NCBI RefSeq assembly: GCF_003073045.1
Contig: NC_037590.1
Coordinates: forward strand, 7,971,835-8,035,834
Source of the DNA: Pomacea canaliculata
Taxonomy: Eukaryota; Mollusca; Gastropoda; Architaenioglossa; Ampullariidae
Direction: 5' to 3'
Length of the DNA stretch: 64,000 nucleotides
Shown here piece by piece: positions 2,190-23,100 of the stretch. Within the stretch, counting starts at the first letter, position 1. Each line of letters opens with the position of its first letter. The notes under the pieces were generated by a model that worked only from the letters and a program-made list of their open reading frames with translations, made no database searches and was not told where the DNA came from. Both the position numbers and the translations under genes were made by a program.

Positions 2190-5100
2190 GTGAGCACAGA
2201 TGCTTACACTTGTGTTTTGTTCTGCTTCTGTGTCCCACACCATGAAACTCTGTTGTACACCACCTTGTCTACACTGACACACCATTCTACTTCCATAACT
2301 ATGTTCTTCACATACACACATAGCTACTAAATGTTTGCACAGACTCGGTGAGGTCTACTCGCCTTAAAGTACACTCTTCAGCCTATAAGTCTTCTGCTTT
2401 CTAATGATGTCTACTGTCCTAAACTCTGTCCCATCGTGCAGCTCGTCTGAGGGCGCAGTATGGCTCCTACAACTCCGCCTCATACGGGTCTGTGGAGTTT
2501 CTCTCAGGCACCACCTGGACTGCGGTCTGCGACAGCGACTGGGACGATAAGGACGCCAAGTCGCCTGCAGGTTTGGCAAACACTGTCCAGATATCCTGGA
2601 TGACAAGGACACAATGAACACATCTAATAAGCACAGCCTTGACATCCATGACAACGTGTTTTAATGTTACCCTAATGGTGGTGATAGTGGAGATGGCTGA
2701 ATGTTTTGGTGGCAAGTGAACAAAGGCGATGCCATTCTCACAGTTTATCTTTATGGAAAGCTAATCTATGAAATGTAATCAAACATTGACCTTTCGAATT
2801 AATTTTTTCTGTATTTATTTTTGTCTTTGTTTTCTTTCTGCAGTATGATGGGGTACGCAGACGGAGCTGCTTTGTGCTGCAGCAGACTTAGTCCTTACAC
2901 ACGTACCAGGTACTTACCTTCAGCCAGAAACATGAACTGCACAGGGACAGAGCTCTCGCTGGCTAACTGCTCTTTCTCGTCTTCGACTGCTAACTGCCCT
3001 GCCAGCCACCTGGCATCTGCTGTCTGCTACAAAACCAACAAAGCACAAGTAGATACGAGTAAGTGAACACAGCTCTCAAAACATGAAGAAGTAAGTATAT
3101 TCTTATTGGAGACATTCAGGTCTGGTGAGCTCCTGACACTGAGCAGAATCTCTTTGTCAGCGAGGATGAAGTTTCTTTGACTAAATATGCGGACTCTGAT
3201 AAGTTAACAACTCACAGCATACAAAATTATGTCAGCAATCCTCACAGTTTAACAAATTCATTCCTTTTTTTATTATTTCAGCTTTCTCCGTTCGACTTGT
3301 CAACGGTTCCTCAAACTGGGGACGGGTGGAGGTGAGGTACATGGGGGCCTGGGGTGTGGTGTGCGTCGGTTCGTCGTGGAACGACTCTGCGGCAACTGTC
3401 GTCTGCAAACAACTTGGGTTCACAGGCGGGGTCAAGTACGAAATCACATCCGCTTCTCACAATAAACAGACAGCTGTCGAACATTACTGTTGCCAAAGAA
3501 TTGCTAATATACATCCGGTTGGTCGAAGACCTTCTACGTTGATTTTTGCTTCTCCTCCAACACAAAAGCAAGTGTCGTCTGCTTATCGTTGTTTCTCGTT
3601 CAGTTGTTCTTTACACAAAATGTCCAACTTGAAGGTCTTCGACCAGCTCCTTGGCTAAATGCTAATATTGCAAACTAGTAGCAGCGATTGCCAACTGCTA
3701 GACAAAGAATTTATTTATATATTTATTTATTTACGATAAAAAAAACCACGCGTTTTCAGTGTATATCTCAGTCCTACAGTCACAGCATCGCCGTCTGTGG
3801 TCCGCATCTGTCTAAGAAGCTCAGAGGCTCAACCATCGATCTACGTTCATTACTAATTAATTACAAACATGTTTACACGATTAGGTTTGGGGGACCACTC
3901 ATCAGCCAGTTTGACGGAAGTGGCTGGGTTACCTCCCTTAACTGCACAGGAAGGGAGACAAGTCTGGACGAGTGCGTGGTGCGGCCGCTAGGGGCGCCTT
4001 CCTACTCCTGTACAGCAGCCCACGCTCTGTGTTACACCACAAGTAAGTCACTTAGAATGTTGTCTTCAGACTATTGGTGGACAACTCAAACTACTTTATC
4101 ACCAGAAGATAATTTGCCTAAGCTCATTAGAAAGTAGGCGACAAAAACTTGAGGCAGGAAGCAGAAAACTAATTTTTACTTTGTTTCCAGCGGCGCCCAA
4201 GGTGCAGCTGGTGGGTGGAGGGGCCAGCTACGGGCGTGTGGAGGTGTCTGTGGATGGAGGGATGTACACAGTCTGCGACAACCACTGGTCTGAATATGAT
4301 GCGACAGCCGTCTGCAAGAGCTGGGATTTCAAGGAGGAGACGCGATAATGGTTATTAACGAACTTTTTTTTAGTTGGGATCCTGTTTTCTCTGACCTTTC
4401 ACAGACCTATTAACTGAATAATTGGCGCAGAGTAAATCATGTGAACGATTCTTTTATAAATAAAATAAATCTGAGCATAAATTTTAAGAGCAAATAAACG
4501 AATGGCTGAAATGAACTGAACCTGATGCTCTTTACTAAGGGAGTGGAAAAAGTGACTTGCTCTTAACTCTTGTGGGGCAGAGGTCCTACTATGGTCCCGG
4601 CAGTGGTCAGGTGCCCTCGACAGCGTCTCGTGTGGTTACTCGGACAAGAGCCTTCTGGGCTGTCGGAGCAAGGGCTGGCTGCAGACGGACACAGCCTGTA
4701 GTGATCACACCAAGGACGCGGGTGTCACCTGCTTCGGTGCAGGTAAGAAACGCGAATCCCACTCTTTGAGTCAGATTTTCAGTGAATGTGAAGCGGACTG
4801 CTTTCCAGCTCTGCTTTGGGGTCCACGACCCTAAGGGCTGTCGTTGGCACAAATAGTCCTGAGGCTCAAAAAACTCTTTGAATATAGTAAGATTGTTGAC
4901 TATGGTTGACTGTCAGTCTGTCGCATTATAATCTTTCACATTATTCCAGGTGGTAGTGCTGGCGAACATACCCTGTTCTCTGATATCTTCGCCATTAACC
5001 AATGTTTCTGTAACAGTCCGGCTCAGAAAGGGAGACCATTCCCACGGAGTTCTCACAGTCAAAATCGGAAGATGGTACTACGCAGTGTGTGGCACTGGCT

Positions 5101-20100: not shown

Positions 20101-23100
20101 GGGGTCACCGAGGCCACGGTGGTCTGCAAGGAGCTGAGCTTTGCCGGCGGAGTCCCTTACTCTGCGCACATCCATGACATTACCTCGGTAACACTTTCAA
20201 ACATCAGCGTACCACGGAGCTCTTTTGTCTTACCATGGCTAGGTCTGATTAGCTGTAAGAAATTAAAAAGCTGTGCATAGGTTTGGAGGTTTGGTTCTGT
20301 TGAGAGACGTGTGCAAACGTTTAAAGCAAACCTAGCGAGTCAGTGTTTCTGTATGTCACTAGACACAGTGTTTCTGTACCACAGCCCATCCTGATGTCGG
20401 ACGTGAAGTGTCGCGGTGACGAGAAATCTCTGTTCAACTGTCAGTCCACAACGACCTCCACAACCTCCTGGTGCGACTACTACGCCCCTCGCGCCGGCGT
20501 CCTGTGCTACAACGACACCAGTGAGTCTGTCGACATAGTAGTTGCTCTGAAAATGTCTCCTTGTATAAACTGGAGCTATGTAGTATGACAGTGACAATTT
20601 AACATTGTTCGGGATGTTCAGCTGCTGCTTTCTTAACCAAATATGTTGACAAAGCGCCCCCTGTCGGAATATTGCGGCAACTGTACCTGTGCCTGTATAA
20701 GTATGTGCACAGATGGACGATTTCATCGTTCGTAGTCAGTGTACAAAATAAAAACTAGGTTTTTTTAAAATTCTGGTATATATATATATCTTGCAGATGG
20801 TATCCGCTATCGTCTAGCCGGAGACAGTGACCCCACACGGGGTCGTGTCGAAATGCAGTATGGCGGCCAGTGGGGTCTCATATGTACCTGGCAAGGAAAC
20901 TACCCGACAGCAGCCGTGGCCTGCAGGAGTGTGGGATACCAGGACGGTTTGCCTATTTCGAGTTTAAGGTCTCTCTCCTTGTTTTCTCTTAGCTCTATCT
21001 GTGTTATCTATTCTCTTTAACTCTGTTATCATCATGTCCAATTTAACTAGCTGGAAACAATAACATTTCCGGATAATTCAGATACCAACCGCTGCTGAGT
21101 GGCTAAGGTCAGCTATTGGATCGCTTGCCTGAGCAAAGCTCTTACCACGGAGGTGTGTGTGGGTGGACTGCTGTCTGTCTGCCGAGACCCACGCTTAGCC
21201 TCTTGCGAAGTTCTCCGCTGTTAGTCTCGGCATGGCTAAACCGGAAGTTTTGTACACATCAGCCTCGTTTTCGTAGTTAACTGGGAAAAAGAACCAGTAA
21301 TACAAGTTCGTGCTCTTACCGACAATCTTCGACTCCGACACCGAGTGCGCTGTACATCAGAGTGCAATGCCTCCTAAGGCTTAAATAATTTGGCGTTCGG
21401 TAGCTCACTTCACAAAATAAGCTACATTTTATTTTCACAAATCCTGAATGAAAACTTGTCTCTATGTTGCAGTGAAACATTAGACGTTAAATGTGAGACT
21501 GCTTCCTATATACATGACTTTTCTATTCACACATTCCCGCCCTCAAATGACGTGTAACGACATATTACCTGGGACTCTTTCGGTTTTCATGCAGGTATTC
21601 GACATCTTTGAAGTCCTGGTTGTACCAAGTGGATTGCCAAGGTAACGAGAGTTCCATACCTGAGTGCCACACCTCTGGTTTCAACGACAGCTTTGGCCAC
21701 TACTACGATTATTTCTGTCGCCAGTACTACACCTTCTCTGTCCAGTGCTACTCCCAGAAGCTGGGTCAGTGTTTCCTTCCACTCACACTCCAGTGCTGCT
21801 GTCTCTGTTCTCTGATAGATCATATAATCATAAACCTACCTGTACATATGTCGATGTTTGCTCTACCTGTAGTCAACTTTCATTGGCTGTCAGTGTGAGT
21901 GTGAGTGTGTATGTGTATTATGTCAGAGTGCTTACACATGCATGCGTGTGGTACCGGCTTCTTCAGAGTAAACAGGAAGTGAAAACAGAAGAGAGTACTT
22001 GACATAAACGGTTAAAGAATTCGTTCTAAATGGAAGAAATGCGTGCAAAAGGTGAGCGTTCAGTTCAGACACCCCTGGAAAAATCTGCATAATTCTCTCA
22101 TTGCTAGCTTTGCTCTGATTTATCCAGGTAAAACAATGTTTCGATTTCTTACTTTCAAAGTTGCACAGACCAGAGGCCTTCTGTATTATTTTCTGCAGCT
22201 CAGGATTGTTTTCCATGAAAAACTGTTAAAACACGAAATTAATGTCAAAAGCAAGAGTAAACTGTTTCTTCTAGCTATCACTGGCCTGCGTCTGGCGGGG
22301 GGCAGTACCAACAGTTCGGGGCGTGTGGAGGTTTTTCTCCAGGGACCCAACCAGTGGGGTACCGTCTGTGATGACGGTTGGGATGATGTCGACGCCACCG
22401 TCGTCTGCAGGCAGCTCGGTTACGGTGATGGGAAGGCAGTCATGCAGGCCGGGTAGGTGTCTGAGACGAGAGACGATGGATTGAAAATTCCTAGCTATTC
22501 ATGTATTTACCTACAAAGCGATGCAGGCATGGCTAGGTGACCAACACCAACAGCTTCTACACCAACATTTAACTGCAGCAACCTCTCACAACATTTGAAT
22601 GTTTATAAAAATCTCATTCAGCCGCGGCAGGCTTTTGTAATCTTTTCGTTTTATGATTCGACAGCACATCTGCATTGAATATATATTTCTGTGCATTCTA
22701 TCCACTCAAAACAATGGTTCTTTGACAGTGAAGTCCAGAGAATATATTGCAGATGACTAAACTTGTATGTGAAAAGAAAAAAAACTAATCACCATTTTGC
22801 TGCAGGTTTGGTCAGGGTTCCGGCAAGATATGGATGGACAACTTAGAATGTAAGGGCACAGAGACACGGTTACAGGACTGTACCTCCAGCGGCTTCGGGG
22901 AACACAACTGCTGGCATAGCGAGGACGCAGGAGTTATCTGCACAGGTGAGTAGGAACCAAAGTCAGAACTGATGAAAAGGTATTTAGAAGCGTGTTTAGC
23001 TTTTCTCGTTATGTTTTCTCTGTCTTTAAGGTGCATTAATATTAAAGAGATCACTAGTGTAGGAATACCTACCTCAAAGCAGTCGGATTTCGAAATGTTG

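Follow-up and report, generated by a model that had tools for sequence, protein, structure and literature searches.

How does a gene come to encode more than two dozen copies of one domain, and is the array built from a unit larger than the single domain? The question is raised by a 64,000-nucleotide stretch of the Pomacea canaliculata genome (positions 7,971,835-8,035,834 of contig NC_037590.1, here C1; the genome is 440 Mb in 24 contigs), referred to below as the window. It contains a plus-strand gene with 26 SRCR domains, from d1 (1602-2176) to d26 (22298-22941); apart from one weak minus-strand match, no more SRCR domains were seen in the rest of the window. An earlier reading made from the letters alone (the sequence-only reading) held that the 24 inner domains are eight three-domain units, and the pattern it described at every third position is confirmed as real: d2-d25 form three classes that recur in 8 x 3 order, class 1 being d2, 5, 8, 11, 14, 17, 20 and 23, class 2 d3, 6, 9, 12, 15, 18, 21 and 24, and class 3 d4, 7, 10, 13, 16, 19, 22 and 25. 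The gene very probably encodes a giant type I receptor whose inner domains are eight class 1-2-3 blocks, with block growth preceding the split between the gene families on contigs C1 and C13. The limits first given for the array, 2442 and 21764, coincide with the predicted exon start before d2 and the predicted exon end after d25 (offsets of 29 and 16 bases).

Domains were placed by splice-aware alignment to a profile built in this analysis. Nine domain stretches were submitted to Pfam and all nine passed the SRCR (PF00530) cut-off, while 17 of the 26 domains were placed by the home-built profile alone; a tenth query, the tail stretch, matched no family. All splice sites are predictions from sequence, and the 26-domain gene was assembled without transcripts. 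The window gene (G6) closes a tandem array of at least six genes on C1, the upstream ones being G1-G5 (Table 1), and two further copies, c13a and c13b, lie on the minus strand of C13 and were fetched in part. In c13a, d2-d26 follow the order of the window gene with d2 poorly spliced, and d1 was not found in the C13 stretch fetched; c13b has d1-d19 and d23, without d20-d22 and d24-d26. The poorly spliced c13a d2 was replaced by c13b d2 in trees and kept in the similarity, Mantel, CC-pair and register tests. A second type of SRCR array on C1 (3,011,232-3,027,630), with 12 mostly near-identical canonical domains of which 10 carry a single phase-0 intron in the same column, was handled identically as a control.

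A three-domain period in the inner array

Three separate marks carry the period: domain sequence, the position of the splice donor and a cysteine pair. First, the window gene's 24 inner domains, placed on one profile, gave mean BLOSUM62 scores per column of 1.48, 1.41, 1.42 and 1.49 at lags 3, 6, 9 and 12, whereas the remaining lags up to 11 gave 1.09-1.22. For period 3 the contrast reached a z of 7.8 in the window gene and 9.1 in c13a, with 0 of 2000 order permutations as high in either; in the window gene periods 2, 4, 5, 7, 8, 10 and 11 were negative, and 6, 9 and 12 were positive as multiples of three. Profile-free Smith-Waterman alignment scored 114.9 for the same class against 92.1 for other classes in the window and 105.6 against 75.4 in c13a (0 of 100,000 label shuffles in both). 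The nearest domain was of the same class for 20 of the 24 window domains and 21 of 24 in c13a by profile, and for 19 and 20 by Smith-Waterman; it was adjacent in two c13a cases by profile (2/24) and one by Smith-Waterman (1/24). Clustering of domains with their neighbours, which the sequence-only reading had named as the outcome contrary to it, was not seen, as 0 of 24 window best partners were adjacent by either method. The control array showed no period.

Second, the predicted exon ends follow class. The best donors and acceptors around and between domains are mostly predicted to be phase 1, and the exon tail, counted from the codon of the last cysteine to the best donor, measures in the window gene 31, 22, 22, 22, 25, 22, 28 and 25 bases in class 1; 10, 15, 16, 13, 13, 13, 13 and 13 in class 2 (the 15, in d6, is out of phase from a frame change); and 10 seven times and 16 once in class 3. 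Tails are thus at least 22 bases in 8/8 class-1 domains and at most 16 in the 16/16 other inner domains. The c13a tails are 28, 22, 34, 22, 22, 22, 28 and 25 in class 1, 10 and then 13 seven times in class 2, and 10 six times and 13 once in class 3 (d16 unscored). Permuting class labels equalled the tail-by-class pattern 0 times in 20,000 in G6, G3, G2, c13a and c13b and once in 20,000 in G4, and taking the first acceptable donor instead gave 0 of 200,000 (23 window domains, d6 excluded). Analysis of variance on tails gave an F of 67.8 with period 3 and 32.0 with period 6, whereas periods 2, 4, 5, 7 and 8 gave 0.1-0.4 (23 of 24 domains). In the control array, 9 of 12 domains have one-base tails. 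The predicted linkers (tail plus next exon head) are 18-24 residues after class 1 (median about 21; eight scored), 17-19 after class 2 (median about 17-18; six scored) and 13-20 after class 3 (median 14; seven scored); c13a medians are about 20, 18 and 14, with greater overlap.

Third, a CC pair had been reported in five class-1 domains, and exactly 5 of the 26 window domains have it (d2, 11, 14, 17 and 20), as a vicinal pair at profile columns 46-47. Across seven gene copies, at these positions, the pair is present in 30 of 31 cases, the sole miss being the poorly spliced c13a d2; none of the 20 copies of d5, d8 and d23 has it, nor does any of the 105 class-2 and class-3 copies. Two of six d26 rows (G2 and G3) read CC, which is taken as an exon-edge error of alignment. 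Group A SRCR domains have six cysteines and group B domains eight, the extra group B pair lying after LG and close to the N-terminus. The six cysteines of group A are in their usual places in most class-2, class-3 and outer domains, and the five CC-bearing domains have eight; their extra pair, vicinal at columns 46-47, does not follow the group B pattern. Domain d16 has four, being without cysteines at columns 21 and 84-86 in 7/7 copies, as if one disulfide, on the cysteine pairing of SRCR domains, had been lost before the C1/C13 split.

The other features proposed for the classes fared unevenly. The YASVVCSN-like last strand assigned to class 1 held in its strict form, YASxxC, in 6/26 domains, all class 1 (d5, 8, 11, 14, 20 and 23), but d2 reads LASAVC and d17 TVSLAC, and a relaxed pattern also matches class-2 d9. 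The CPxG segment said usually to precede it was overstated: CPSG or CPTG stands before the last strand in d11 and d14 alone, with CLSG or CKSG in d20 and d23. Of the class-3 marks, scored by eye, GW/GF occurs in five of eight domains (d4, 7, 19, 22 and 25) but also in d26, and DAxVxC in five (d4, 13, 16, 19 and 22) without being exclusive, as it recurs in d1, d12, d26 and, in a second frame, d6. The proposed filament with a three-domain repeat of surface properties found no support, with mean net charge alike across classes (-1.6, -2.0 and -2.5) and no clear pattern by class in charge or N-glycosylation; the traits that repeat by block are the vicinal cysteine pair and exon-tail length.

Trees bear out the classes in part. 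The domain alignment has 96 columns, which limits tree resolution. A 78-row tree was built from the window gene, G5 and c13a plus G3 d2 and c13b d1 and d2, with c13a d2 excluded. In it class 1 is one side of a branch (24/24 rows from both families; support 81/94). In the window-only tree of 26 domains, where long branches call for caution, the class labels need 4 changes (minimum 2, mean under shuffling 11.8; none of 200 shuffles so low), and approximately unbiased (AU) tests rejected no class as a clade (p 0.359, 0.364 and 0.262). The C13-only tree, to which the same caution applies, again has class 1 on one side of a branch (59/95), and class 2 takes four changes (1 of 500 shuffles as low). 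The expectation of three position clades is upheld for class 1; classes 2 and 3 are not clean clades.

Age of the shared register

When c13a is slid along the window array, the score is 1.735 with the arrays in register (shift 0); it lies at 1.22-1.38 for the seven other shifts that are multiples of three and at 0.87-1.10 for the other sixteen. Identity between the window gene and c13a is 34.4% at the same position, 29.3% for the same class elsewhere and 26.1% for other classes; within the window gene, same-class identity is 32.2%. The best c13a partner of a window domain lies at the same position in 10/24 cases by profile and 11/24 by Smith-Waterman, and is of the same class in 20/24 (Smith-Waterman). 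Because the register peaks at multiples of three and is highest at shift 0, and because identity is highest at the same position, the eight units in their present order most likely predate the split of the C1 and C13 families. Gene conversion has most likely not erased the unit order.

The ratio of nonsynonymous to synonymous change (dN/dS), by simple counting over 7-9 intronless domains per pair, is 0.39-0.44 when the window gene is compared with four tandem paralogs, which fits a protein under moderate constraint, and 0.55-0.70 among G2-G5. Introns within domains were tried as shared marks; their positions mostly differ between families and are uninformative on units, although d17 agrees (column 31, phase 1), as does d7 (column 46-49 and, for the majority of copies, phase 2). 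On C5, a third family was dropped (just two domains in the 10 kb fetched). On C11, at 12.61-12.75 and 13.35-13.46 Mb, there are many SRCR half-domain matches on both strands, a large array.

Probable growth by blocks

The most likely source of the blocks is unequal recombination between phase-1 introns lying between the domains. Such introns would make any run of whole domains duplicable in frame, and the inter-domain introns, predicted to be phase 1, are in keeping with growth through duplicated blocks. This growth would have preceded the divergence of the C1 and C13 lineages, after which the 24 positions would have evolved separately in both. Growth by three-domain blocks, as first proposed, has good support as the source of the pattern from the class-1 clade, the splice-donor offset and the C13 paralog; the order of duplication, the unit boundary and the block size were not recovered. 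The block register is a convention: linkers would place the boundary after class 1, and the domain count places it before.

A weak point of the pattern is class 3 of the window gene, which scores scarcely higher with itself (97.8) than with class 2 (96.0) by Smith-Waterman. Several results weigh against the block-receptor explanation. Neither class 2 nor class 3 is a single clade in the 78-row tree, where they need 5 and 7 changes against shuffled means of about 20.7, a contrast that near-copies inflate, and in the C13-only tree class 3 takes five changes, matched or beaten by 38 of 500 shuffles. Clades of whole units were rejected in just one of three units tried (p 0.0087; the others 0.234 and 0.094). 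The best-donor tail test fails in G5 (4231 of 20,000), where one d19 donor call is an outlying 69 bases, and linker lengths overlap between classes, with two long class-3 values (18 and 20). Had whole blocks been copied once each, unit-by-unit likeness would be expected to match from class to class; raw unit-by-unit Mantel tests gave p<0.05 in 2/12 cases (0.038 and 0.029, both for class 1 against class 2, in the C13 and C1-C13 comparisons), the others not being significant, and 0/12 once unit means were removed. Finally, c13b duplicated five domains (d14-d18, copies 94-99% identical), not three; recent changes in that copy ignore the three-domain unit. The duplication, at C13:13,823,129-13,831,235, breaks the three-domain register, each of its copies being followed by a weak partial-domain match, and then come d19 and d23; the second d14-d18 block lies outside the table of seven gene copies. 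A duplication order drawn from the Mantel tests was dropped, as they gave no consistent signal.

Given the Mantel incongruence between classes, the copied blocks may have been larger. Larger or mixed blocks of the three-class pattern (six, nine or twelve domains, or other runs) could have been copied, the period still stemming from one early block; eight duplications of a single unit would then be an oversimplified account. This is a serious possibility, though somewhat short of probable. Similarity at lags 6, 9 and 12 is close to that at lag 3, unit history differs between classes, c13b shows both its five-domain repeat and its missing runs, and the tandem genes vary at the N-terminal end (Table 1); against it, the inner 1-2-3 order is intact in the window gene and in c13a.

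Convergence, in which three packing environments along a rod would select three sequence types with no block duplication, is very unlikely. It would agree with the poor separation of classes 2 and 3 in trees and with the class dependence of predicted linker length. However, class 1 forms a clade, presence or absence of the CC pair is almost wholly fixed by position in both lineages, and the predicted donor position after the last cysteine tracks class with no obvious reason to converge. Likeness within classes through gene conversion between same-class domains, instead of block descent, is highly improbable: tandem SRCR genes may exchange sequence, and the control array is nearly homogeneous, but the excess of same-position over same-class identity between window and c13a, set beside same-class identity within the window, argues that no homogenisation took place. 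An artefact of profile, frame handling or assembly, which the frame changes needed in places in most copies and the transcript-free gene model might suggest, is scarcely credible: the result stands when no profile is used, the domain order recurs, local gaps aside, in five tandem genes and two C13 copies that were each read on their own, and the identically run control has no period.

A putative giant receptor and its relatives

Under the block-growth reading, the gene product would be a giant type I membrane receptor with 26 SRCR domains, a Pro/Thr-rich stem, one transmembrane helix and an NPxY tail. The fold was tested on one domain of the 26: the predicted model of d14 has a predicted local distance difference test (pLDDT) score of 78.2 and is weakest after the CC pair, and the 50 listed of its 100 Foldseek matches were all SRCR proteins (E 1.3e-6 to 1e-4, template modelling score 0.61-0.78), among them LOXL2 and factor I, which contain SRCR domains. 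The tail carries NPGY and NPVY in the window gene and NPVY in G1 and G3, with NPCF in c13b; the G2 match ends before the motif. Signal-peptide-like starts were seen in two of the three genes looked at (G3 and G5). Together with the transmembrane segment these features fit a type I endocytic receptor, and the window gene product is probably an endocytic scavenger receptor. Two observations speak against this part of the proposal: strict NPxY is limited to the window gene, G1 and G3, with DPLY in G4 and NAPY in G5, and the window has no convincing signal peptide. A signal-peptide candidate at 1245 was rejected as not conserved.

Cations mediate ligand binding by SALSA/DMBT1 domains, with two Asp and one Glu among the residues that hold them (PMC7043408). 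We placed these residues at columns 22, 23 and 68 ourselves, without an alignment to SALSA. On that placing the set is kept in 3/26 window domains (d1, d11 and d26), 3/25 in G5 (d11, d17 and d23), 3/26 in G3 (d1, d11 and d23) and 2/25 in c13a (d6 and d26); in the control array the acidic residues are kept in 10/12. Most inner domains thus do not look canonical at the cation site, and the outer ones look so in some copies only. Any ligand contacts that the inner classes make may lie on other surfaces. The receptor would act as an endocytic scavenger or in pattern recognition, holding repetitive ligands by many weak contacts and taking them up through NPxY. Since most inner domains are without the usual cation-site acidic residues, the rod may be partly a spacer or bind through other surfaces. 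Because the longest predicted linker follows class 1, the inner array might form a rod in which one joint in three is looser; class 1 bears the vicinal CC in 5/8 units. That the block is a mechanical and chemical protomer, with a redox-active and possibly cross-linkable hinge every third domain that would let receptors zip into ordered bundles, and that selection held the eight-unit length in two lineages, is unlikely.

Each long homologous repeat of complement receptor 1 has seven CCP modules. That protein is likewise a long receptor, with 30 modules in four higher-order regions (PMC5845983), but its modules are CCP and not SRCR. Bovine WC1 has a unique domain 1 followed by a repeated SRCR block and is encoded by a multigene cluster (PMC2681482), with the order a-b-c-d-e-d-b-c-d-e-d' (PMC2906472). 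The present genes resemble it as clustered multi-SRCR membrane receptors with a distinct first domain, a repeated block and a transmembrane segment. WC1, however, has a five-domain block twice and belongs to cattle gamma-delta T cells, whereas here a three-domain block occurs eight times in two old paralogs. Unlike the group B block of WC1 (b-c-d-e-d), the period is three and the domains are mostly six-cysteine with one CC-bearing class, so that this is not a WC1 member. Chicken CD163_3 (a-b-c-a-b-c-x-e-d') likewise has a three-domain SRCR cassette within one receptor, though in two copies rather than eight and of vertebrate domain types (PMC2906472). DMBT1/SALSA also has many SRCR domains, for which multivalent low-affinity binding is proposed (PMC7043408), and in sponge tandem SRCR genes the duplication units are one or two SRCR domains (PMC10855680). 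In DMBT1 the SRCR domains are accompanied by CUB and ZP domains; in the window gene the tail stretch, which was the part scanned for other domains, gave no family. Compared with DMBT1/SALSA and the invertebrate expansions, the present gene has three diverged classes, inner domains with the cation-site acidic residues mostly gone, and a transmembrane segment with an NPxY tail.

Higher-order repeats in receptor arrays are thus known; here the unit is another, the copies are more and the register is old and fixed. No description of this eight-block SRCR array was found in searches of the open-licence PubMed Central literature. The repeat matters in being complete and in register in two diverged gene lineages. 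Exon ends offer a possible route to block history once the sequence signal has faded, and class 1-2-3 gives a defined unit for asking about the ligands and necessary length of giant invertebrate-type SRCR receptors.

Table 1. Tandem genes on C1 (contig coordinates) and features of the window gene (window positions)
Feature	Position	Strand	Evidence or remark
G1	upstream on C1		at least the end of a sixth gene; SRCR matches back to 7.748 Mb
G2	C1 7.784-7.817 Mb		tandem gene, same domain order; begins at d3
G3	C1 7.823-7.870 Mb		tandem gene, same domain order; extra outer domain
G4	C1 7.880-7.916 Mb		tandem gene, same domain order; begins at d7
G5	C1 7.925-7.964 Mb		tandem gene, same domain order; without d2
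d1, outer SRCR, canonical type	1602..2176	+	phase-0 intron at profile column 43; similar to the canonical domains in another array
d2, class 1, CC; frame change at intron edge	2471..3027	+	profile alignment
d3, class 2	3308..4032	+	profile alignment
d4, class 3, two exon pieces	4214..4732	+	profile alignment
d5, class 1, no CC	5034..5506	+	profile alignment
d6, class 2, internal frame change	5995..6263	+	profile alignment
d7, class 3	6739..7360	+	profile alignment
d8, class 1, no CC, internal frame change	7804..8089	+	profile alignment
d9, class 2	8392..8664	+	profile alignment; Pfam SRCR
d10, class 3, frame change near start	8938..9483	+	profile alignment
d11, class 1, CC, frame change near start	9801..10049	+	profile alignment; Pfam SRCR
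d12, class 2	10284..10571	+	profile alignment; Pfam SRCR
d13, class 3, frame change near start	10849..11615	+	profile alignment
d14, class 1, CC	11762..12058	+	profile alignment; Pfam; predicted fold matching SRCR structures
d15, class 2	13510..14121	+	profile alignment
d16, class 3, without first and fifth of six usual cysteines	14693..15289	+	7/7 copies tabulated
d17, class 1, CC	15593..16048	+	column-31 phase-1 intron common to C13 paralog
d18, class 2	16330..16620	+	profile alignment; Pfam SRCR
d19, class 3	16885..17178	+	profile alignment; Pfam SRCR
d20, class 1, CC	17387..17866	+	profile alignment
d21, class 2	18128..18427	+	profile alignment; Pfam SRCR
d22, class 3	18565..18876	+	profile alignment; Pfam SRCR
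d23, class 1, no CC, internal frame change	19411..19687	+	profile alignment; first part Pfam SRCR
d24, class 2	20032..20507	+	profile alignment
d25, class 3	20820..21748	+	profile alignment
d26, outer SRCR, canonical-like	22298..22941	+	profile alignment
Pro/Thr-rich stem, one transmembrane segment, cytoplasmic tail (NPGY, NPVY)	23241..23756	+	open frame; relatives at tandem-gene ends

Frame changes occur in seven window domains that are otherwise well conserved (d2, d6, d8, d10, d11, d13 and d23; 2471-19687) and also in G2, G3, G5, c13a and c13b, with none flagged in G4; some flags may be missed introns. They are probably assembly indels rather than signs of pseudogenes, because a neighbouring UBL/UBA-like gene changes frame too. 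In that gene (window 43175-44163, UBL7-like by eye) the last part continues in another frame. The intron after d12 holds a long trinucleotide repeat, at about 10590-10670, that reads as poly-Q or poly-C. Farther along the window, two adjoining exon sets at 54684-55289 and 58945-59476 look by eye like cyclophilin-type isomerases.

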